Part shown: piece after piece, positions 67 to 9,070 of the stretch
Position numbering within the stretch: position 1 is the stretch's first letter
Layout: each line of letters begins with the position of its first letter
Source of the DNA: Candidatus Desantisiibacteriota bacterium
GTDB taxonomy: Bacteria > JACRDZ01
Direction: 5' to 3'
Length of the DNA stretch: 9,267 bases
NCBI GenBank assembly: GCA_016209155.1
Contig: JACQWU010000268.1
Span: 1-9,267, forward strand
Translations under genes and position numbers: made by a program
Notes under the pieces: model-generated
The model's database searches: none
Seen by the model: only the letters and a program-made list of their open reading frames with translations
What the model was told of the DNA's origin: nothing

Positions 67-94
67 GTAGGGGCGAACCTATGTGTTCGCCCTG
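67..94 (+). repeat. REP-like hairpin, copy 1
   Basis: This 28-bp element has a GGGCGAAC / GTTCGCCC stem (8 bp) around a 6-nt loop CTATGT, preceded by GTAG. It is identical to the copy at 461-488 and the exact reverse complement of the copy at 175-202. Such short GC-rich palindromes in AT-rich DNA are typical substrates of RAYT transposases, one of which is encoded next door. Confidence 0.9.
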
Positions 95-160
95 CATTTG
101 TTGTTCGCCCAATATTGTCCGCACAATGTTTGTTGTTCGCCCTGTATTTGTTGTTCGCCC
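87..160 (+). repeat. Degenerate 18-bp repeat units between the hairpins
   Basis: A 14-bp core, TTTGTTGTTCGCCC, occurs at 97-110, 129-142 and 147-160. Spacing of the last two is 18 bp. The unit at 137-154 differs by one base from the 18-bp tandem unit inside the transposase gene (535-552 and 553-570), so the two arrays share an origin. Confidence 0.8.
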
Positions 161-174
161 AATGTTATCCAAAA

Positions 175-202
175 CAGGGCGAACACATAGGTTCGCCCCT
201 AC
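175..202 (-). repeat. REP-like hairpin, copy 2 (inverted)
   Basis: Exact reverse complement of copy 1 at 67-94. The two copies form a 28-bp perfect inverted repeat with 80 bp between the arms, each arm also being a hairpin on its own. This paired arrangement resembles a BIME. No run of T follows on either strand, so I do not call it an intrinsic terminator. Confidence 0.9.
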
Positions 203-254
203 ATTGGTGGATGTTACAATATTTCCATTGTTGATAATACAATAAAAATGAATT

Positions 255-869
255 TCAAATAAAATATTTATCATCCTGCCATTTTATTGGATTATTGATA
301 ATATATTCTGATATTTTATAATACGATTCTTCATTTCGGATAATATGTTCATAATAATTCCGTTGCCATAATTTTTTATCAAATTGTTTCCACCCATTTT
401 GTTTAACATTTCGTATATATTCATTCGTGGTCATCGTTTTAAACCATTGCACAATTCCCCGTAGGGGCGAACCTATGTGTTCGCCCTGTTTTTGATCTTC
501 GCCCTGTTTTTGATCTTCGCCCTGTTTTTGATCTTCGCCCTGTATTTGATGTTCGCCCTGTATTTGATGTTCGCCCTGTATTTGATCCCCATTGTTGACA
601 ATAATACAATGAAAATGGTTTGGCATGATGATGTATCCATCCAATTCAATATCGGTAAATTTGTTTTGCAATTCGTTATACCATTTTTTGATCATTTCAC
701 CTGCAACATTTAATTTCATCTTTCCGTCCACAATTTTTCCAAATAAACATTCACGGTTTTGAGTACAAATAGTGATAAAATATAATCCCGATTTTGAATA
801 ATCATAATTTTTTAATCGTATTGAACGGCGATGATGAATATCAGGATCATATTTTGTCATAAATTGCAT
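255..869 (-). CDS. REP-associated tyrosine transposase (RAYT, IS200-like Y1_Tnp)
   Basis: This is a 204-aa HUH-superfamily single-strand transposase. The metal-binding motif HFH is at residues 85-87 (MPNHFHCII). The catalytic tyrosine lies in WQRNYYEHIIRNE (168-180, Y172 or Y173). The C-terminal EYIINNPIKW (188-197) is typical of the family. Such proteins nick and join REP palindromes. Residues 96-131 are an unusual insert of hexapeptides (QIQGEH, then QKQGED), encoded by six 18-bp repeats and one REP-like hairpin. The 869 start has GAGGG six nt upstream. M4 (860) is an alternative, forming ATGA with the old rhuM stop at 857. All motifs are present, so the gene may be active. It is a mobile or domesticated neighbour rather than an obvious defence component. 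Confidence 0.9.
   Translation of the reverse strand: MQFMTKYDPDIHHRRSIRLKNYDYSKSGLYFITICTQNRECLFGKIVDGKMKLNVAGEMIKKWYNELQNKFTDIELDGYIIMPNHFHCIIVNNGDQIQGEHQIQGEHQIQGEDQKQGEDQKQGEDQKQGEHIGSPLRGIVQWFKTMTTNEYIRNVKQNGWKQFDKKLWQRNYYEHIIRNEESYYKISEYIINNPIKWQDDKYFI
461..488 (+). repeat. REP-like hairpin, copy 3, inside the transposase gene
   Basis: Identical over 28 bp to the intergenic element at 67-94. On the coding strand it reads in frame as QGEHIGSPLR (residues 128-137). The hairpin therefore lies within the gene of a transposase whose family acts on such hairpins. Confidence 0.9.
481..588 (+). repeat. Six tandem 18-bp repeats in the transposase coding sequence
   Basis: Six head-to-tail 18-bp units cover 481-588. 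The first three are identical (TCGCCCTGTTTTTGATCT), the next two are TCGCCCTGTATTTGATGT, and the last ends in CC. Because 18 is a multiple of three, copy-number change keeps the reading frame. On the minus strand they encode hexapeptides with a QGE core. The first unit overlaps the end of the REP-like hairpin at 481-488. Confidence 0.95.
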
Positions 870-1018
870 TTCTTACCCTCAATCCTTTTTATCTCTTTAT
901 CAAAATCAGAGATATAATTTTCATCCTGTATTTTTCTATAAACCTCATATTCCTGTTCTGCTTTAAGCTTTGCTTCTAAAGCAGTAATTTTTCCTTTGTC
1001 AGATAAAATAGGATAGTT
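857..1018 (-). pseudogene. Detached C-terminal remnant of rhuM
   Basis: Downstream of the truncated RhuM stop, another minus-strand frame is open from 1018 to a TGA at 857-859. It reads NYPILSDKGKITALEAKLKA, then EQEYEVYRKIQDENYISDF, then DKEIKRIEGKKCNL. This matches the usual RhuM C-terminus as I remember it (…Y-x-ILxDAGKIS…, …YISDFDKEVKRL). A TAG precedes it in this frame, so it is not translated as part of RhuM. The final stop overlaps the transposase start region. Confidence 0.75.
876..880 (-). promoter_or_regulatory. Ribosome-binding site for the transposase
   Basis: GAGGG lies 6 nt upstream of the ATG at 869, within the former rhuM coding sequence. It supports 869 over M4 (860) as the start. 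Confidence 0.5.
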
Positions 1019-1646
1019 CTAAAAAATCATAAATAATTTCCGCGGCTGTTTTTCCTGTAATTGCCCAATGGAGCTTATTTTGCACAGTAGCAAAAAACTC
1101 TTTTGTTATAGGAGCATTTTTATCATAATCAACAGACAGTGCGTATATATCTGTTATTTTCTGATAAAATTTTCGCTCACTGGCCCGAATCTCACGAATG
1201 CGTTCTATCAGTTCGTCAAAATAGTCTTTACCAAAAACCTGATTCCCTTGCTTCAACCGTTCATCATCCATCACAAAACCTTTAATAATGAATTCTTTTA
1301 AGGTCTTTGTTGCCCAGATACGAAATTGAGTAGCTTGATAACTATTAACTCGATAACCAACAGAGATAATAGCATCAAGATTATAGAATCTGGTTTTATA
1401 TGTCTTTCCATCGGATGCAGTTGTTTCCAAAATGGAAATAACTGAATTTTCTTCAAGTTCACCAGCTTCAAAAATATTTTTTAAATGTTTGTTAATTGCA
1501 GGTACTTTAACTCCAAAAAGCTCCGCGATTGCTTTCTGTGTAAGCCAAACAGTTTCATCTTTTAAAAAGACTTCTATCTTAACATTCCCCTCATTTGAGG
1601 TGTAAAGAAGGAAGTTAGATTGTTTATCAGGAAGATTTTTTTTCAT
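999..1646 (-). CDS. rhuM: Truncated virulence RhuM-family protein
   Basis: These 215 residues match the N-terminal part of the RhuM family, whose full members are about 330-345 aa. Visible hallmarks are the helix-turn-helix-like ETVWLTQKAIAELFGVK (31-47), NKHLKNIF (52-59), YNLDAIISVGYRVNS (88-102), FRIWATKTLKEFIIKGF (108-124) and MDDERL (126-131). After AAEIIY (201-206) the protein jumps to DFLE, normally about 80 residues further on, then leaves frame and stops. This implies an internal deletion plus a frameshift. RhuM function is poorly understood; members are often found inside restriction-modification loci. The start ATG (1646) overlaps the stop of the ATPase gene as ATGA. The fragment is probably non-functional, though the N-terminal domain could still fold. 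Confidence 0.85.
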   Translation of the reverse strand: MKKNLPDKQSNFLLYTSNEGNVKIEVFLKDETVWLTQKAIAELFGVKVPAINKHLKNIFEAGELEENSVISILETTASDGKTYKTRFYNLDAIISVGYRVNSYQATQFRIWATKTLKEFIIKGFVMDDERLKQGNQVFGKDYFDELIERIREIRASERKFYQKITDIYALSVDYDKNAPITKEFFATVQNKLHWAITGKTAAEIIYDFLELSYFI

Positions 1647-3901
1647 GATTGATTCCCCACTACAGATTCTTGTAATATTTTGTAGTGTTTTGGAAATGCA
1701 CTATTCATCATATCCAATAGATATTCTACATTTTTTTGACTTTCTTGAACAAGAGATGGTTCAAATCCTTTCCCTGTCATATGTGACTGGTCATTAGTAA
1801 ATTTATAAATCGCTGTTTTTTTATTTTCATCAAATTTGATTGACTCCAGTTTTTTATATATATTTTCACAGTTTGGGCACATTATCATTAAAAAATTTTC
1901 AAGAAGTTTTCTTGCAATGTTTGGAATGTGATATACAGAAGCTATTGTTCCATCAGATTTAAAATCGCTTAAAACTTTAAATAAATATTGGTATTCATTT
2001 TCATAATTTTTTAATAATTCATCTAAATAATCTAATATAGCGATTCTGTTCCCATTTGAGAATAAGTTTTTGATCATATAAAATTCTTTGCCACCCTGAT
2101 TATTTGGGTATCTTTTTAACCAATCCAATAATAATTTTAAAAAATCAAAATTATGGGTTAGAATAAAAACTTGAGCAGATTCTTTCACTGCATTTTTTAA
2201 GAATGCGAAAGCTTGAAATAAAGAGTTTGCGTCAAGACTGCAAATCGGGTCATCAACAACAACAATTCCATCACTAATTTTGAAATCATGATCTTTTAAG
2301 TGAATTGTAAAATAGACAAAAGCAATAGCTGTTTTTTCTCCTTCGCTTAGATTTTTAGCGATTCTGCCTTTCCTTTTTATTAAATATCCTTGTTCGGCAA
2401 CTTCAAAAGCAAGCTCATCTCTACCTAAAAAAGTTTTTAATTGATTATTAATTTCTTCACATGCTGTACCAGATGTGGATATTTTGTTCTTATTCTCGAT
2501 AATTCTTTTTTGAATTCCTTCGATACCAATATCATTTGAATCTTTTGGATTGCCTTTTTCAAGTAGATTTATTTCTTCTTTCAATATTTTAATATTCGAT
2601 TCTAATAATTTTACATCATCAAATATTTCACTTAAGTAATGATTTTCAAGTTTAGTTGTAGCTTCTTCTTTGGCTTTTGTAAAGTTATTCGTTTTTTTAT
2701 TATGGCTATTTATCTCTGAGTTGACTGACGTTATTGCAGAAATAATAGATTCCGTATCGATATTCACATTTAGTTCTAAAGAGTCTGTTGTATTAGATTT
2801 TTTATTTTTAATTATTTCCTTGAATATTAAAATACTGTTCAACAAATCTGTTTTACAAATATTGAAATTGCTCGTTTTGAGTAAGTAATTTTCTTGAAGC
2901 TCATCATATAAATTGGCTTTATCAAAAATATTTAAATTTTTAATCGTATCATATAATTCATCAATCTCACTCAATAAAATATCAATCTCATCCTTTAGTT
3001 TTTTATCGGCATCGTTGAAAAAAGCTAATAAATCAGAAATGCGTTCTTTCGGTAAAGGTTGATTGCAGAATTCACAGTTTGTTGATTTTTCTATTATGTG
3101 CAGTTCAAGACCTTGTTCAACCCATTTTGAAATATTAACATTTTTTTTCAATCGTTCAATAATTACTGTTTCAACAGTGCGTTTTAAAAGTATTTTTGAC
3201 TTAAGGATAATAGATTTGACTTTTTCTTTAATATTGTTAATGATTATCTCATTAAGAACTGGTTTTTCTATCTGTTTTAGGGTAAGTAAATAGTTGTTTA
3301 TTTTTTCTTCCGATTGTAATTGTTTTGTTTGTAGCTTTGCAAAAGCTTGCTCCGCATTATTTTTACGATAATTTCTCGCTGAAACTCCGCTGGTATTTGA
3401 ACTTATGATTTTAGCGATGTCTGTAAAACATTTTCCCTTTTCTACCTCTTTTTGATCAATTTCATTTTTCTTCTGCTCTAACTTTTTAAGTTTCCCTATG
3501 TCATCTTTTTTCTCTGGGTCACCGTGGAGGATTTTTTCATCATTTTTAATAGCTTCTACTAATTCTTTATTTTCTTTACCAAGTATAAAAATCGGTTTTG
3601 CTTTTCCTGCTAAAATATCAATGTTTTCGGATATATAATCCTGATTAAATACCCTTATTTGTTTATTAAACGTGTTCCCGTGGGTTAAATCACCATCTGA
3701 AGTTTGAATTTTATATTCAAGTTCAGCATATGTTTCTGATTTACCATTTGGGAAAGAAGCAAATAATTGAGATAATGTTGTTTTGCCCGAACCATTCCAG
3801 CCATAGATAAGATTAAACCGTTTAAAATCTGGTAAATTGGAATTCCATTGATAACTATCAAAGATGCCAAGATTTTTAATTTTAGATATTTTATTTATCA
3901 T
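1643..3901 (-). CDS. AAA_13 ATPase, RloC/PrrC-like candidate anticodon nuclease
   Basis: An SMC/Rad50-like ATPase of 752 aa. Residues are numbered from the in-frame TTG at 3922, which adds seven. Walker A is GWNGSGKTT (41-49), a long coiled coil carries a zinc-hook-like CEFC (283-286), the ABC signature is LSEGEK (525-530), Walker B is IVVVDDP (553-559) and the switch is LTHN (588-591). The C-terminal domain has RKLLE (R671, E675) and NDQSH (H714), the R-x3-E...H pattern of PrrC/RloC anticodon nucleases, which cleave tRNA in the anticodon loop during phage attack. The ATG at 3901 overlaps the phosphatase stop as ATGA, with GGGAGG 13 nt upstream; the TTG has no such site. It is shorter than the RloC proteins I know. 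The ATPase call is firm; the nuclease activity is inferred from motifs. Confidence 0.85.
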   Translation of the reverse strand: MINKISKIKNLGIFDSYQWNSNLPDFKRFNLIYGWNGSGKTTLSQLFASFPNGKSETYAELEYKIQTSDGDLTHGNTFNKQIRVFNQDYISENIDILAGKAKPIFILGKENKELVEAIKNDEKILHGDPEKKDDIGKLKKLEQKKNEIDQKEVEKGKCFTDIAKIISSNTSGVSARNYRKNNAEQAFAKLQTKQLQSEEKINNYLLTLKQIEKPVLNEIIINNIKEKVKSIILKSKILLKRTVETVIIERLKKNVNISKWVEQGLELHIIEKSTNCEFCNQPLPKERISDLLAFFNDADKKLKDEIDILLSEIDELYDTIKNLNIFDKANLYDELQENYLLKTSNFNICKTDLLNSILIFKEIIKNKKSNTTDSLELNVNIDTESIISAITSVNSEINSHNKKTNNFTKAKEEATTKLENHYLSEIFDDVKLLESNIKILKEEINLLEKGNPKDSNDIGIEGIQKRIIENKNKISTSGTACEEINNQLKTFLGRDELAFEVAEQGYLIKRKGRIAKNLSEGEKTAIAFVYFTIHLKDHDFKISDGIVVVDDPICSLDANSLFQAFAFLKNAVKESAQVFILTHNFDFLKLLLDWLKRYPNNQGGKEFYMIKNLFSNGNRIAILDYLDELLKNYENEYQYLFKVLSDFKSDGTIASVYHIPNIARKLLENFLMIMCPNCENIYKKLESIKFDENKKTAIYKFTNDQSHMTGKGFEPSLVQESQKNVEYLLDMMNSAFPKHYKILQESVVGNQS

Positions 3902-4392
3902 AATTTTAAAATATCCTCCCAATTTTTTTGTAAGTAAAGAGCAATGCCTTTCCCTGGTAAATAATCAGAATATATTTCCGAAAATTCAACCTTGGCACTT
4001 GAATAAGAATTGCACGAAATAATATTATTTTGAGCAAGATAAATCAAACCAATAGAAGGTGAACGGGATTGCCCCATGTTGCAATGGATAAGGATTTTTT
4101 GTTCCTTTATATGTTTTCTTATGAAGACCAATGCGGATTGTATTATTGGATGTGTAAATTTTACAAGCAACTCTCTATCCATATCGACTATATTTAGGAA
4201 TAGATGATTAGCACTTTCATAAATTAGGTAATAGGGATGATTTGAGGACAAATTGCCACGGTATCCAACACCGTTTTGGTGACAAGTTTTACATGTATGA
4301 ATAATAAAAAAATGTAAACCAGTAGTTGAGCAATCAACATCATTACCGATATAAAGATTTTTTAAAATTTCTTTCATAGAGAAGCTTTCCAT
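3898..4392 (-). CDS. Dual-specificity-type (HCX5R) phosphatase
   Basis: A small cytoplasmic cysteine phosphatase of about 164 aa from this start. The active-site loop is HCNMGQSRSP, with catalytic Cys and Arg six residues apart. An upstream LNIVDMDR segment supplies the likely general-acid Asp. The fold order (LYIGN strand, acid loop, long helix, ILIHC strand, SRS helix) fits the dual-specificity family, whose members act on phosphotyrosine/serine/threonine or RNA 5' phosphates. The frame is open to a TTG at 4446. I prefer ATG 4392; ATG 4377 (MKEILKNLYIGN) is equally plausible because the family typically begins near NLYIGN. The stop overlaps the ATPase start as ATGA, so the two are translationally coupled and probably work together. 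The substrate is unknown. Confidence 0.85.
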   Translation of the reverse strand: MESFSMKEILKNLYIGNDVDCSTTGLHFFIIHTCKTCHQNGVGYRGNLSSNHPYYLIYESANHLFLNIVDMDRELLVKFTHPIIQSALVFIRKHIKEQKILIHCNMGQSRSPSIGLIYLAQNNIISCNSYSSAKVEFSEIYSDYLPGKGIALYLQKNWEDILKL

Positions 4393-4446
4393 CCTACTCT
4401 CACGTTTCCGTTCACCAGCGCATTCCTCAGACGCAAGAAGGTTCAA
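4393..4446 (-). other. GC-rich leader before the phosphatase, with 5S-like words
   Basis: This short stretch is clearly richer in G and C than its surroundings. On the minus strand it contains GCGCTGGT, a small ACG-GAAA-CGT hairpin with a GNRA-type loop, and GAGAGTAGG. The last word matches the loop-E side of bacterial 5S rRNA. It may be a structured leader, a rearrangement scar or coincidence. It is too short to be a 5S gene. Confidence 0.2.
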
Positions 4447-4480
4447 ATTTTATTGAAGTTTTCTTGAATTCAGATAAAGA

Positions 4481-5803
4481 TTATCTCTTTTCATCTTTTA
4501 ATAAGGTTAACCCTTTTAGTGTTACTTTATATTTTTGTAAACGACTATTAGGTTTATCCGGAATTGTTAATTCCAATAAACCTTCATCAATAAGTGGTTT
4601 AATATAAAAATTCCGAAACCTTGTGCGATTTGTTTTTCCGCATATTTCCATCAGTTCTAATAAATTTTTATCTTTTGTTGATGCCTTTAGTATTTTTATT
4701 GTTTCTTCACTTGGGACGATCTTAGGACGATCTTGGGACAAACTTGAGACATCTTGCTCATGTTTTTTGTCTGCTTGCGAATGAATTTTAAACGTCGCCA
4801 TAAAATATTCCCTGTCATCATCCGTTTCAAAAACAGGTGACGGGGATCCATTTCTTTTTAATGCCTTGCGAATTTTTGGAAATCCGGTACAGCGGCCTTC
4901 CGTTAAATGAAGTTCTTTTAAAAAATCACCCAGACGGCTGTTCCTATAACGATGAGAAGTAACGATTGGTTTGTTTATATTGTCTTTGCCAAGCGGCGGT
5001 AATGGTCCGGGGTAGCTAAGTATAAGAATGTGGTCAGGGTATATTCGCACTTCAACCGGCTCACGTTCTTCGTAGCTTTTGTGATACACTGCGTTGACTA
5101 AAGCTTCTTCAAGCGCCTCATACGGATAATTATAAAATCTGTCTGCTTCCGCTCTGCCGGGTATTTTACGGACAAACTCTCTGATTACTGTATTTTTCAA
5201 ATAACCAAGAGCGGAACGAACTTGCTGATGAACAGGGCCGGTAAAAATCTTTTCCGCAAAAACATCTCCTGCTTCATCTTCAAACTCGACAATATCAATT
5301 CGCGCGCGAGGAAAGAATTTTTCCGGATTATCATTAAAAAGCAATAGTCCTATGTTTTTCGGTTTAAAATATTCCGCAGAACCCTGAGCAATATTCATCC
5401 GTATACATAAGTCCGCGAAAGGTACCTTTGATACCTCGTCAGAAAAGGCACTGCGAATTTCTGCCAGATATGACCGGATCAAGGTAATATTAAGATCATT
5501 CAAATTCGCATTATGGTTACTTAAAAAATATTCAGGCCTTATCTTGTAGAACAGCCCCAAAAGCTCTTTTTGAATCTTCACAATCTCGGACTGAGATAGC
5601 CCATTTGGCGGAAAGACAGGAACGTTCTTTTTCTCCGCAACACCAATCACAATGTAGCCACCGCCCCAATTGTTGATATCATTAGCAAAAGCGCACATCG
5701 TATGTAAGACCGCTTCAGGATTCCATCCTTCTTTAAATTCAAGGCGCTCGGACTCCACAACACGGCCGTGTAGTAATTCATAAATATTTATTGGTAATGC
5801 CAT
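4481..5803 (-). CDS. AlbA_2 / GHKL ATP-binding protein with C-terminal winged helix
   Basis: A COG2865-like protein of 440 aa. The N-terminal AlbA_2 (Schlafen-type) nucleic-acid-binding domain shows VESERLEFKEGWNPEAV (16-32) and FANDINNWGGGYIVIGV (39-55). A GHKL-type ATPase domain carries the N-box EEALVNAVYHK (E233, N237, H241), SYPGPLPP (263-270) and GRCTGFPKI (303-311), where homologues often have GRGTG. Residues about 365-438 form a winged-helix-like tail. Compared with homologues I remember (about 500 aa), roughly 60 residues are missing near 95-100, removing the second half of AlbA_2. The ATG at 5803 has AAGGCGG 7 nt upstream and lies 22 nt after the helicase stop. Family members often accompany restriction or defence genes; the exact role is unknown. 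Confidence 0.85.
   Translation of the reverse strand: MALPINIYELLHGRVVESERLEFKEGWNPEAVLHTMCAFANDINNWGGGYIVIGVAEKKNVPVFPPNGLSQSEIVKIQKELLGLFYKIRPEYFLSNHNANLNDLNITLIRSYLAEIRSAFSDEVSKVPFADLCIRMNIAQGSAEYFKPKNIGLLLFNDNPEKFFPRARIDIVEFEDEAGDVFAEKIFTGPVHQQVRSALGYLKNTVIREFVRKIPGRAEADRFYNYPYEALEEALVNAVYHKSYEEREPVEVRIYPDHILILSYPGPLPPLGKDNINKPIVTSHRYRNSRLGDFLKELHLTEGRCTGFPKIRKALKRNGSPSPVFETDDDREYFMATFKIHSQADKKHEQDVSSLSQDRPKIVPSEETIKILKASTKDKNLLELMEICGKTNRTRFRNFYIKPLIDEGLLELTIPDKPNSRLQKYKVTLKGLTLLKDEKR
4714..4756 (+). repeat. Imperfect 11-bp tandem repeats in the linker of the AlbA_2 protein
   Basis: Four degenerate units are seen: GGACGATCTTA, GGACGATCTTG, GGACAAACTTG and AGACATCTTG (one base short). 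They code for the linker QDVSSLSQDRPKIVPS just before the winged helix. An 11-bp unit is not a multiple of three, so copy-number change would shift the frame and cut off the C-terminal domain. Confidence 0.6.
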
Positions 5804-5825
5804 ATTATTTCCGCCTTTTCAGCGC

Positions 5826-8780
5826 TTACTTAGCGACAAATGTAAGAATAATATTTTGTGTTTCATGAATATCCTGCACTTCAAGAATTGCCCATTTCCC
5901 GAATTTCTCCGTATTATTTACTGCCGGAATCCACATTTCACGGGCTGTTTTTACTTTTATTGTTTTTTTATCATCTTTTTTTCCGGTAACTTCAAGAATA
6001 AGATTCAAAATGGATTTATCATGCATTTTAATTTTTACAATAAAGTCGGGTGTATATTGCCTTCCAATACCCTGATGTTCATAAGGGATAGTAAATCCTA
6101 AATTTTGATTTTTTACATAGGTAAGTACTTCAGGCATCTGTTCCAGTCTTTTTGCGACACCCTGTTCCCATTCTTCAGTATCAGCGACAACATAGTTTAC
6201 ATGGCTTTTTGCCGTCTCCCGCACTTCCTTAGTTGTTAAAAAATCAACATAACGCGTAGAGCCTATCGTATCGTAGGGAACAAGAATGGGTAATAACTTT
6301 TTATCTTTTTGATTTTTGATGTTTTCGACTATAATTGCCTGCTGAATTTTTGTTAAAGCGCCTGAAAAATATTGTCCCACTGAAAGAAATCCAATTACCA
6401 TTCGATCTTTCAATACTACATAATTTTTTACATACTGCTCGGCAATTCGCCTAAGCTGTGGACCAAGCCAATATTTCTCAGCGCCGTCAGCGTCAGTGTA
6501 ATAACGCTTGAGAAGGGCGGAAGTCAAATGCATAATAACTTCTCCCTCCCGGAGTTCTTTTATTCTTTCCATTGTTTCTTTAATTTCTACACCAATTATT
6601 CCGCTGCTCGTTACTTCAGTTGGTTCGTTTTCAATAATTGTTTTTGATTCATCAGTAAAATGCGCCTCCAGTTTAACTTCATTTAATTCATAACGATAGC
6701 CCTCAACACGAGGGTAAGTAATTTCATATTGTTCACGTTCAGATAATGCATAAACACGATGAAAAATTTTTGGCGGCTGAGGCGGAGTCTCTCCTTCTGC
6801 TTTTAAAAAATTAAATGGAACACCATAAACCTCAGCATATTCTGGGGTCATAAGACCGGTTGATTCATCAACGTTATAATCAATGCGTCGCAAAGCTCTG
6901 CCAATTACCTGTTCACATAAAAGCTGGGTAGAAAATGCGCGCACTCCTAAAATATGGGTGACGGTATTGACGTCCCATCCTTCAGTAAGCATTGAAACTG
7001 AAACAACGCATTTAATGTTTTCCCCAAGCTTGCCGGGTTTGCCGACTGTGTTCATTACTTCACGCAATAATTCTTCATCTGTCGGTTCTGTCCTGCCCGG
7101 AAAACGCCGGCGGTATTCTTTATGGAAATCATCAATTTCTTTATCAAAAATATTTTTGAATTCCGAATTGATTTTTTCTCCGCTTTCAAGCTGTGCGCTG
7201 TCAATAAGCAGCGTGTTTGGACGATCAAGAAAACGCACTCCGTCTTCGTTCCGGAATATAGGCAGATTACCTTTTTCAATTTTAATTCCACTGCTTGCAG
7301 TTTCTTTTTCATAACCGGTTATCCAGCGATAAACTAATTCTGAAACTGTTGTATTGTTGCATACTACAATCATTACCGGCGGCATCACACCTGAATTATT
7401 TTTTTTGTGTTTCTCGTATTCACGATAATATTTTTCATAGCTTCCATAAAGGGATTCCAAAGCTTCCTGCAATGTTGTAGGCAAAATCAGTACTGAAAGA
7501 TTATATTCTTTCTTGCCGGTTTTCAGTCCTTTTTTGGGAAGATTGTCCCGAACATGCAGCCATAAATTACGAAATTCAGGTTCATCACCTTTAGCAATGG
7601 TGTCAGACTCAATTGGTAAACGCGGAATTTTTACAACACCGCATTCCAGAGCATCTAAAAGAGAAAAATCATAAACTGTCCATGGGAATAATGTGCCTTC
7701 CTGATAGCCTGAACCGCGCAGGAAATAAGGAGTTGCTGAAAGATCAATAATTCCATTAACGGTAATTTTTTTATAAAGCGCTTCAATTCCGCTGATCCAA
7801 ACACGTGCTGATTTATTGTTTTCTTCCGCCTCTTTTCTGTCTTCCCCTGCCAATTTTTCTTCGTTTGGTTTTTCCCGATAGCAATGATGGGCTTCATCAT
7901 TTATAACCAAAACGCGTTGTTTGTTAAGAATGCTTTTGAATGCCCTGTTTACCATAGCGTTCGGAGTCTCTTTCATAGCTTCATCTTTAATGATGCCTGT
8001 AGCTTTTATTACAGCGCCGAGTTGGAAACGAGGATTTTGGCGTAATTCCAACTGGTGAAAATTTGTTATAAAAACCACTGCCTGCTGAAGAAGTTCTAAA
8101 TCCTGAATTGAAACGATATTGCGCTGTCGATAATAATTTTGAGGATCATTCGGACGTAATACATTAAGCCGGTCGCGAATAGTAATACCGGGAGTAATAA
8201 TAACAAAAGCATCTGTAAAACGCGTATCCTGCGGGTAACGAATTTTATTAAGCGTATGGTAAGCAATAATCATTGCCATTACTACAGTTTTGCCGGAGCC
8301 TGTTGCCATTTTAAATGCTAATCGGTATAATCCGGGATTTGCGTCAGTGCTTGCTTTTTTGAGTGTATTAATTATCCAATTTTCCCCGAATTTTTCCGCA
8401 ACTTCATTAATATACATTAATGTTTCAAGCGCTTCTATCTGGCAGAAAAATAATTTATTTTCCCGGTTTCCATCATTCCAGTAAAAAAGCAGATCGCGGG
8501 ATGTTTTTGTTATACCTTGATAGCCGGCATCGCGCCAGGCTTTGATTTTAACGCGGATTTTATTTATGAATTCATTTTCTTTCTCAAGCTCGCTTCCATA
8601 AGCGCCTTCAGCAATATTCAGTGCAAGCTGTTTTTCTTTAGTCTTCGCTCGCGGGACAGGAATATAAAAACTGCTTGGACGGCGATAATTTAGAATTTCT
8701 TCGGTTAAGCCGCGTTCATCTGCTTTAAAATGCCGCGATGGTTCGTTGTACGGTGAATTGAGTATTGGATTTTTTGCCAT
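5826..8780 (-). CDS. Type III restriction-like DEAH helicase/nuclease (BPTD_3080 family)
   Basis: A 984-aa superfamily 2 helicase related to type III restriction Res subunits. It likely translocates on or unwinds DNA using ATP and cuts it. Visible motifs are Walker A MATGSGKT (158-165), NDEAHH (294-299), LSATP (347-351), MLTEGWDVNTVTHILG (597-612) and QVIGRALRR (624-632). The C-terminus has YTPDFIVK (909-916) followed by ILEVTGKKDDKK (928-939), a PD-(D/E)xK-like nuclease site in which T replaces the usual lysine, with lysines just after. VPAVNN-type residues (IPAVNN, 951-956) and KWAILEV (962-968) are typical of this family. The start ATG has AAAGG 6-7 nt upstream and a promoter further up. 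It is the first gene of the operon. No methyltransferase partner is present. Confidence 0.9.
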   Translation of the reverse strand: MAKNPILNSPYNEPSRHFKADERGLTEEILNYRRPSSFYIPVPRAKTKEKQLALNIAEGAYGSELEKENEFINKIRVKIKAWRDAGYQGITKTSRDLLFYWNDGNRENKLFFCQIEALETLMYINEVAEKFGENWIINTLKKASTDANPGLYRLAFKMATGSGKTVVMAMIIAYHTLNKIRYPQDTRFTDAFVIITPGITIRDRLNVLRPNDPQNYYRQRNIVSIQDLELLQQAVVFITNFHQLELRQNPRFQLGAVIKATGIIKDEAMKETPNAMVNRAFKSILNKQRVLVINDEAHHCYREKPNEEKLAGEDRKEAEENNKSARVWISGIEALYKKITVNGIIDLSATPYFLRGSGYQEGTLFPWTVYDFSLLDALECGVVKIPRLPIESDTIAKGDEPEFRNLWLHVRDNLPKKGLKTGKKEYNLSVLILPTTLQEALESLYGSYEKYYREYEKHKKNNSGVMPPVMIVVCNNTTVSELVYRWITGYEKETASSGIKIEKGNLPIFRNEDGVRFLDRPNTLLIDSAQLESGEKINSEFKNIFDKEIDDFHKEYRRRFPGRTEPTDEELLREVMNTVGKPGKLGENIKCVVSVSMLTEGWDVNTVTHILGVRAFSTQLLCEQVIGRALRRIDYNVDESTGLMTPEYAEVYGVPFNFLKAEGETPPQPPKIFHRVYALSEREQYEITYPRVEGYRYELNEVKLEAHFTDESKTIIENEPTEVTSSGIIGVEIKETMERIKELREGEVIMHLTSALLKRYYTDADGAEKYWLGPQLRRIAEQYVKNYVVLKDRMVIGFLSVGQYFSGALTKIQQAIIVENIKNQKDKKLLPILVPYDTIGSTRYVDFLTTKEVRETAKSHVNYVVADTEEWEQGVAKRLEQMPEVLTYVKNQNLGFTIPYEHQGIGRQYTPDFIVKIKMHDKSILNLILEVTGKKDDKKTIKVKTAREMWIPAVNNTEKFGKWAILEVQDIHETQNIILTFVAK

Positions 8781-8871: not shown

Positions 8872-8917
8872 GAAATTTGAAATTTTTTGTGTATCCCCTC
8901 AGATATTGGTGTAGTTT

Positions 8918-8987
8918 GTCATTCCTGCGAAGGCAGGAATCCAGATGTTTTAAAAGTGGATTCCCAATTAAACATGCTGGGAATGAC
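8918..8987 (+). repeat. REP/MITE of the GTCATTCC...GGAATGAC type
   Basis: Outer 8-bp inverted ends, GTCATTCC (8918-8925) and GGAATGAC (8980-8987), enclose an inner hairpin ATTCCTGC-GAAG-GCAGGAAT (8921-8940) and a second weaker one (ATTCCC 8960-8965 with GGGAAT 8979-8984). This form, with GGAATCCAG after the first hairpin, is widespread in bacterial intergenic DNA as a non-autonomous repeat. It differs in sequence from the GGGCGAAC family at the left end. Confidence 0.75.
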
Positions 8988-9070
8988 AGCCAAAGAAGCT
9001 TTTCTCACACCAATAACTGAGGCAATACTTTTTTATCAAAATGAATATTGTTATAAAATCCAAAAATTTC

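Follow-up and report, generated by a model that had tools for sequence, protein, structure and literature searches.

The window, a 9,267-nucleotide stretch of DNA from a Candidatus Desantisiibacteriota bacterium, carries on its minus strand a row of genes for a Res-like helicase/endonuclease, an AlbA_2/GHKL ATPase, a dual-specificity phosphatase (DSP), an RloC-like protein and rhuM (Table 1). Profile searches and open reading frames bore out these identities and the common strand, both of which had been proposed in a first-pass annotation. The interval given there for the set, 3898-8780, does contain Res, AlbA_2 and DSP; the RloC-like gene and rhuM lie outside it. As had been noted there, rhuM follows the RloC-like gene, with a 4-bp overlap, but it is broken: residues about 1-205 are followed by residues about 282-329 in another frame, the middle is absent, and the domain is not full length (Virulence_RhuM profile positions 1-141 of 252 only).

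Table 1. Positions of genes and gene junctions in the window
Feature	Position	Strand	Remarks
BPTD_3080-family Res-like helicase/endonuclease	5826..8780	-	984 aa; the restriction half in R-M systems that include Mod
AlbA_2/HATPase_c_4/Fic-like_C protein	4481..5803	-	440 aa; Pfam
Dual-specificity phosphatase (DSP)	3898..4377	-	159 aa from the likely ATG at 4377; ORF reaches 4446
ATGA overlap, DSP stop/RloC start	3898..3901	-	ORF coordinates
RloC-like AAA_13 anticodon-nuclease candidate	1643..3901	-	752 aa counted from the probable ATG, 3901; the longest ORF begins at 3922
ATGA overlap, RloC stop/rhuM start	1643..1646	-	ORF coordinates
rhuM, N-terminal about 205 residues, broken	999..1646	-	Virulence_RhuM E 1.9e-69
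rhuM 3'-end remnant, other frame	878..1009	-	tblastn with intact RhuM
REP-associated transposase	869-255	-	downstream of rhuM

ORF coordinates place 4-bp ATGA overlaps at both the DSP/RloC and the RloC/rhuM junctions, and about 103 bp separate the AlbA_2 gene from the DSP start, a gap that leaves a single transcript for all the genes unsupported. An hsdS remnant was sought in this gap, and nothing recognisable was found. In the assembly the contig (C208) is 11,271 bp long and extends beyond the window; upstream of the latter it holds only a divergent repetitive protein, so that the earlier observation, of a methylase lacking both among these genes and upstream, was confirmed as far as 11,271 bp, and a Mod gene upstream of Res is excluded on this contig. 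Neither hsd nor type IIG genes occur on the 11.3 kb. Base 1 is the contig end, on the transposase side of rhuM; the first 26 bases overlap with nothing elsewhere in the assembly, and the genome's other hsd contigs gave no provable join.

Several repeats were also seen. A MITE-like repeat (CATTCCTGCGAAGGCAGGAATCCAGATG ... CATGCTGGGAATGACA) lies on the promoter side of Res at window 8917-8990, and at window 480-570 the transposase ORF encodes repeated units, QIQGEH/QKQGED, which resemble the 'CAGGGCGAACAC..TTCGCCC' repeats near window 70-210. The broken rhuM (window 878-1646; middle gone, frame changed) adjoins this REP-type transposase.

The Res protein gave an equivalog-level match to NF046055 (BPTD_3080) of 1117.8 bits, the curated cut-off being 800 bits, together with Pfam matches to ResIII (E 3e-11) and RE_endonuc (E 5e-4). 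Its nearest relative, in a genome of the same phylum (G001), is 91% identical and lies in the order Res–AlbA_2–Mod–DarT–DarG, with an AlbA_2 protein of 495 aa and a Mod-like N6_N4_Mtase of 720 aa. Alignment with that AlbA_2 protein showed that the window copy has lost 71 internal residues in frame, inside the AlbA_2 region, and that identity is 93.5% on one side of the deletion and 78% on the other.

We examined the flanks of 39 other BPTD_3080 loci drawn from a 386-genome sample, the window locus not being among them. A Mod-like gene was present at 36 (some of the 3 exceptions are cut by contig ends), neither DSP nor RloC was found beside the helicase at any of the 39, and, conversely, none of 30 genome DSP loci had BPTD_3080 beside it; by these counts the window is an exception. 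At five of the 39 loci (L224, L230, L232, L236 and L240) an OLD/AAA_15-type ATPase-nuclease stands beside the BPTD_3080–Mod pair, of which it is possibly a further part. A literature search, with subscription journals and preprints outside its coverage, found nothing on BPTD_3080.

A piece of the missing methylase was found in the same assembly. Contig C331 starts with the last 187 residues of a Mod of the G001 type, 97% identical to it; the N-terminal part was not found in the assembly, which is 79% complete. In composition C331 is nearer to this genome's contigs than G001 is, and it is also the most distant among the own-genome contigs compared. The suggestion that a cognate methyltransferase might lie outside the window is thus borne out in part, by this fragment on C331, and not on the window's own contig, where no Mod-type methylase adjoins Res as it would in a Mod-partnered (type III-like) restriction-modification (R-M) system. 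Elsewhere in this genome (L200, on contig C271) type I genes with HSDR_N, HsdM_N and Methylase_S matches are followed by seemingly broken pieces of DarT and DarG, the pair that comes after Mod in G001.

These observations bear on the original proposal of a single defence system, lacking a methylase, made up of Res, AlbA_2, DSP and RloC, with RloC as back-up for the helicase. The shared strand, the short gaps, the DSP/RloC/rhuM overlaps and the 11.3 kb without a methylase are all consistent with it, and there is a report of RloC next to R-M loci of type III (PMC2610378). Against it stand the regular presence of Mod and the uniform absence of DSP and RloC at the other BPTD_3080 loci, the Mod piece in the same assembly and the internal deletion in AlbA_2, and we consider it very improbable. 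The description 'methylase-free' does not survive comparison with the Res–AlbA_2–Mod order of G001, and the idea of one joined operon does not stand up to the same counts; across the 39 BPTD_3080 and 30 DSP loci the helicase and the DSP were nowhere neighbours, the outcome that had been named beforehand as refuting the proposal.

RloC and PrrC are latent anticodon nucleases tied to restriction. RloC cleaves tRNA, excising the wobble nucleotide; PrrC, which has no zinc-hook insert, is about 340-416 aa long and is encoded inside a type I operon. The window protein matched AAA_13 with E 7e-136 and the PADLOC model PDC-S06 with E 1.6e-246, and the PrrC model matched its C-terminus (residues 547-744, E 1.6e-12). 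Its 759 aa with a zinc hook and the lack of an hsd gene on the contig do not fit PrrC. In an alignment of ten homologues (A6), the ATPase motifs of the published RloC anatomy (Walker A, signature and Walker B/D-loop; GWNGSGKTT, LSEGE and DDP) were invariant or nearly so, and both the zinc hook CXXC (C283/C286) and the anticodon-nuclease triad R671/E675/H714 were invariant; the equivalents in GkaRloC are C288/C291 and R692/E696/H737 (PMC2610378). The first-pass reading of this protein as RloC therefore holds, with Walker motifs, zinc hook and Arg-Glu-His triad all kept, and from these conserved residues it is expected to be an anticodon nuclease. A structure model showed long helices on either side of the zinc hook and found Rad50/SMC heads in Foldseek, but the model is only moderate (pLDDT 79) and the global fit poor, so that no claim is rested on it.

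That RloC is occasionally linked with loci of type I or type III has been noted before (PMC2610378), and to that extent the RloC part of the locus is not new. In our genome sample, 3 of 10 other PDC-S06 loci were R-M-linked (HsdS–RloC–HsdR in L256, type IIG–RloC in L264, and L258) and none of the 10 had a DSP; RloC adjoins HsdR without DSP in L256 and L212. Plasmid homologues, of 28-41% identity, for the most part stood alone or had McrBC or TIR genes as neighbours, and no DSP was found near them.

The DSP gave a DSPc (PF00782) match of E 1.5e-8, with 35.0 bits against a Pfam gathering score of 33.5. Its CX5R motif, HC99NMGQSR105, and a general-acid candidate, D65, lie in a protein whose H98-C99-X5-R105 and D65 are conserved in two alignments (A3/A5). 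The structure model is very confident (pLDDT 97.4) and has the DUSP fold (Z 16.4, rmsd 2.3 over 129 residues to 4yr8_B), the best structural neighbours being MAP-kinase phosphatases (MKPs). Judged from sequence, the catalytic motifs are intact; the activity of the protein, its substrate and the direction of its effect are predictions.

It is conceivable that such a protein acts on nucleic-acid ends, for instance by stripping 5'-phosphates, so that phage kinase/ligase repair of RloC-cut tRNA or of R-cut DNA would be blocked. The DSP does adjoin an anticodon nuclease in the window and in one viral contig (L068), and it weakly resembles the DUSP-like domain of Rit1 (E 0.0058), a match that falls below the cut-off; an identity as an RNA phosphatase was rejected for that reason and the idea kept only as a rival. 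The signature HCNxGxSRSP and the structural neighbours, on the other hand, are those of protein phosphatases (MKPs), and most R-M-linked copies have no adjoining anticodon nuclease. We regard action on nucleic-acid ends as quite unlikely; the conserved residues, together with the modelled MKP-like fold, make a phosphoprotein a likelier substrate than the ends of RNA or DNA.

Single-protein back-translation scans, with P0003 of genomes and with P0004 of viral sequences, gave no matches, and alignments were required. The DSP family is rare: among 386 genomes, strong matches occurred only in the window's genome, G118 and G377, and a 50-genome sample of the phylum of G377 added two more (G403 and G422). 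Three of these four other copies lie in R-M operons, of type IIG in G118 and of type I in G377 and G403 (HsdM–RhuM–HsdS–DSP–x–HsdR in the last), and the fourth, in G422, is beside a gene that we take to encode a KAP-type NTPase. Scanning 84,980 species genomes yielded 32 loci, 30 of them with a recovered DSP ORF. Within 4 ORFs of the DSP, a type I, type IIG or BREX gene was present at 15 of these 30, which near-duplicates (L152/L153/L159, L160/L163 and L155/L156) reduce to roughly ten independent cases; about half had no R-M gene nearby. As a rough control, the 39 BPTD_3080 loci, with flanks of similar size, gave a type I or type IIG gene at none. The phosphatase association that had been noticed is real for R-M operons in general and not for the BPTD_3080 helicase. 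In the window itself the DSP comes after the Res/AlbA_2 pair, on a contig without hsd or type IIG genes.

At six loci the hsdS stop and the DSP start share 4 bp. In the viral contig L068, where the DSP overlaps HsdS by 4 bp, overlapping genes run HsdM–RhuM–225 aa–HsdS–DSP–RloC–HsdR; this contig and the window are the only two places in which a direct DSP–RloC pair was seen. The DSP of L145, 65% identical to that of the window, lies in the order HsdM–Fic–AlbA remnant–HsdS–DSP–Abi_C–OLD–UvrD-like–HsdR, and the operon in G377 (L222, 4410-13965) reads HsdM–RhuM–HsdS–DSP–TIR–RhuM–HsdR. Other neighbours include an AbiTii gene, an OLD-type nuclease and an SMC-like ATPase, besides the TIR gene of G377, and in L154 the DSP directly follows brxL. 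Two further features of these operons were the Gabija-like pair (OLD-type nuclease plus UvrD-like protein) nested in L145 and, in G377, the two RhuM copies and the position of the DSP directly before the TIR-domain protein.

A tree of 51 rows places the window DSP with L145 (100/97) and then with G377, L143 and L144; all four are R-M-linked, and support is modest at the clade's deeper forks (89/81, 83/73, 91/51). The R-M label required 7 changes on the tree, against 13.8 in shuffles, and so the association has several origins and is nevertheless clustered. Separately, the family was seen to be common in phage contigs, with 101 confirmed stretches (L063-L142), and phrog_5614 covers 16 of 40 members tested.

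The DSP could be a passenger. On this view R-M operons are insertion hot spots for mobile genes and receive, among others, a phage-type phosphatase gene with no function tied to restriction. Its frequency in phage contigs, where most copies lie outside R-M operons, and the half of the genome loci without an R-M gene make such a role possible; the R-M label was gained several separate times, and R-M operons hold many other inserts (Fic, RhuM, DUF2971, TIR). Yet the R-M-linked members cluster on the tree, the hsdS overlaps are exactly 4 bp in six loci, and type IIG and BREX operons have been entered besides type I. We hold the passenger explanation to be an improbable one, though it has to be taken seriously.

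The reading that we favour, at a probability of roughly 0.6, is that the locus combines, as a mosaic, two pieces of R-M origin. The first, BPTD_3080 Res plus AlbA_2, would be the restriction half of a Mod-containing system whose Mod is no longer adjacent and whose AlbA_2 is damaged; the second, DSP–RloC–rhuM, would be a cassette of accessory genes such as type I operons carry between hsdS and hsdR. That the whole locus is decaying debris with nothing now working is unlikely in our estimation: three of six genes are indeed damaged or missing (Mod cut off, AlbA_2 deleted, rhuM broken) and a REP-type transposase adjoins, but Res, DSP and RloC have kept their full length and their motifs, and a free RloC without control is expected to be toxic.

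Within the proposed mosaic, RloC would lie latent and, once restriction is breached or DNA is broken, halt translation as a tRNA anticodon nuclease, a role known for RloC and expected here from the conserved residues. The DSP would act as a phosphoprotein phosphatase on the R-M complex or on the linked suicide effector, the activity of which would then depend on its phosphorylation state; alternatively, it may reverse phosphorylation made by an infecting phage. A role in resetting or sensing the phosphorylation of the complex or effector is likely. HsdR of EcoKI can be phosphorylated on threonine, with no known enzyme or purpose according to a review (PMC3874165), and representative type IB and IC R subunits are reported there not to be phosphorylated, which weighs against HsdR as a universal target.

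Neither PADLOC nor NCBIfam holds a defence model for the DSP (one weak chance match was obtained), and in the literature searched, which took in no subscription journals or preprints, no account of a DSP in R-M or anti-phage operons was found. The new element is accordingly the recurrent link of this DSP family to R-M operons, for which no such paper or PADLOC model was found. More tentatively, we suggest that this so far undescribed MKP-like family might regularly regulate type I, type IIG and BREX systems, and their suicide effectors (RloC, TIR and OLD nucleases), as a partner whose phospho-switch times their activity; this is a possibility to which we give less than even weight. Knowledge of how type I enzymes and linked anticodon nucleases are silenced and released is incomplete; a phosphatase whose gene overlaps hsdS ahead of hsdR or of an anticodon nuclease is a direct, testable candidate for such control. 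The locus also corrects the methylase-free reading and illustrates that broken R-M operons can mimic new systems.

The window may finally be set beside known systems. Its Res shares the equivalog-level match of BPTD_3080-family R-M systems (NF046055 plus a Mod-like N6_N4_Mtase), and its AlbA_2 neighbour is common to G001 and G267; unlike those systems, it has no adjacent Mod, its AlbA_2 is internally deleted and DSP–RloC–rhuM comes next. PrrC/EcoprrI, an anticodon nuclease in a type I operon, is matched in position by relatives of the window genes (hsdS–RloC–hsdR in L256 and L212, hsdS–DSP–RloC–hsdR in L068), whereas PrrC has neither zinc-hook insert nor phosphatase partner and the window has no hsd genes. 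With RloC (PMC2610378) the window protein shares a coiled coil that bears a CXXC zinc hook and separates the ABC ATPase motifs, a C-terminal Arg-Glu-His triad at matching spacing and a similar size; it differs in lying between DSP and rhuM, on a contig without an intact R-M operon. The DSP has the fold (Z 15.8-16.4), the HCX5R motif and the general-acid Asp candidate of the MKP-type phosphatases DUSP16, DUSP8 and DUSP7, but only about 20% identity to them and an R-M context, and its prokaryotic/phage family has a conserved N-terminal block, HACK..CHQ..GYRG....HP.YL, unlike MKPs. BREX/Pgl also has a phosphatase-like gene in a methylase-based defence operon, and a DSP follows brxL in L154; PglZ, however, belongs to the alkaline-phosphatase superfamily and is unrelated to DSPs.
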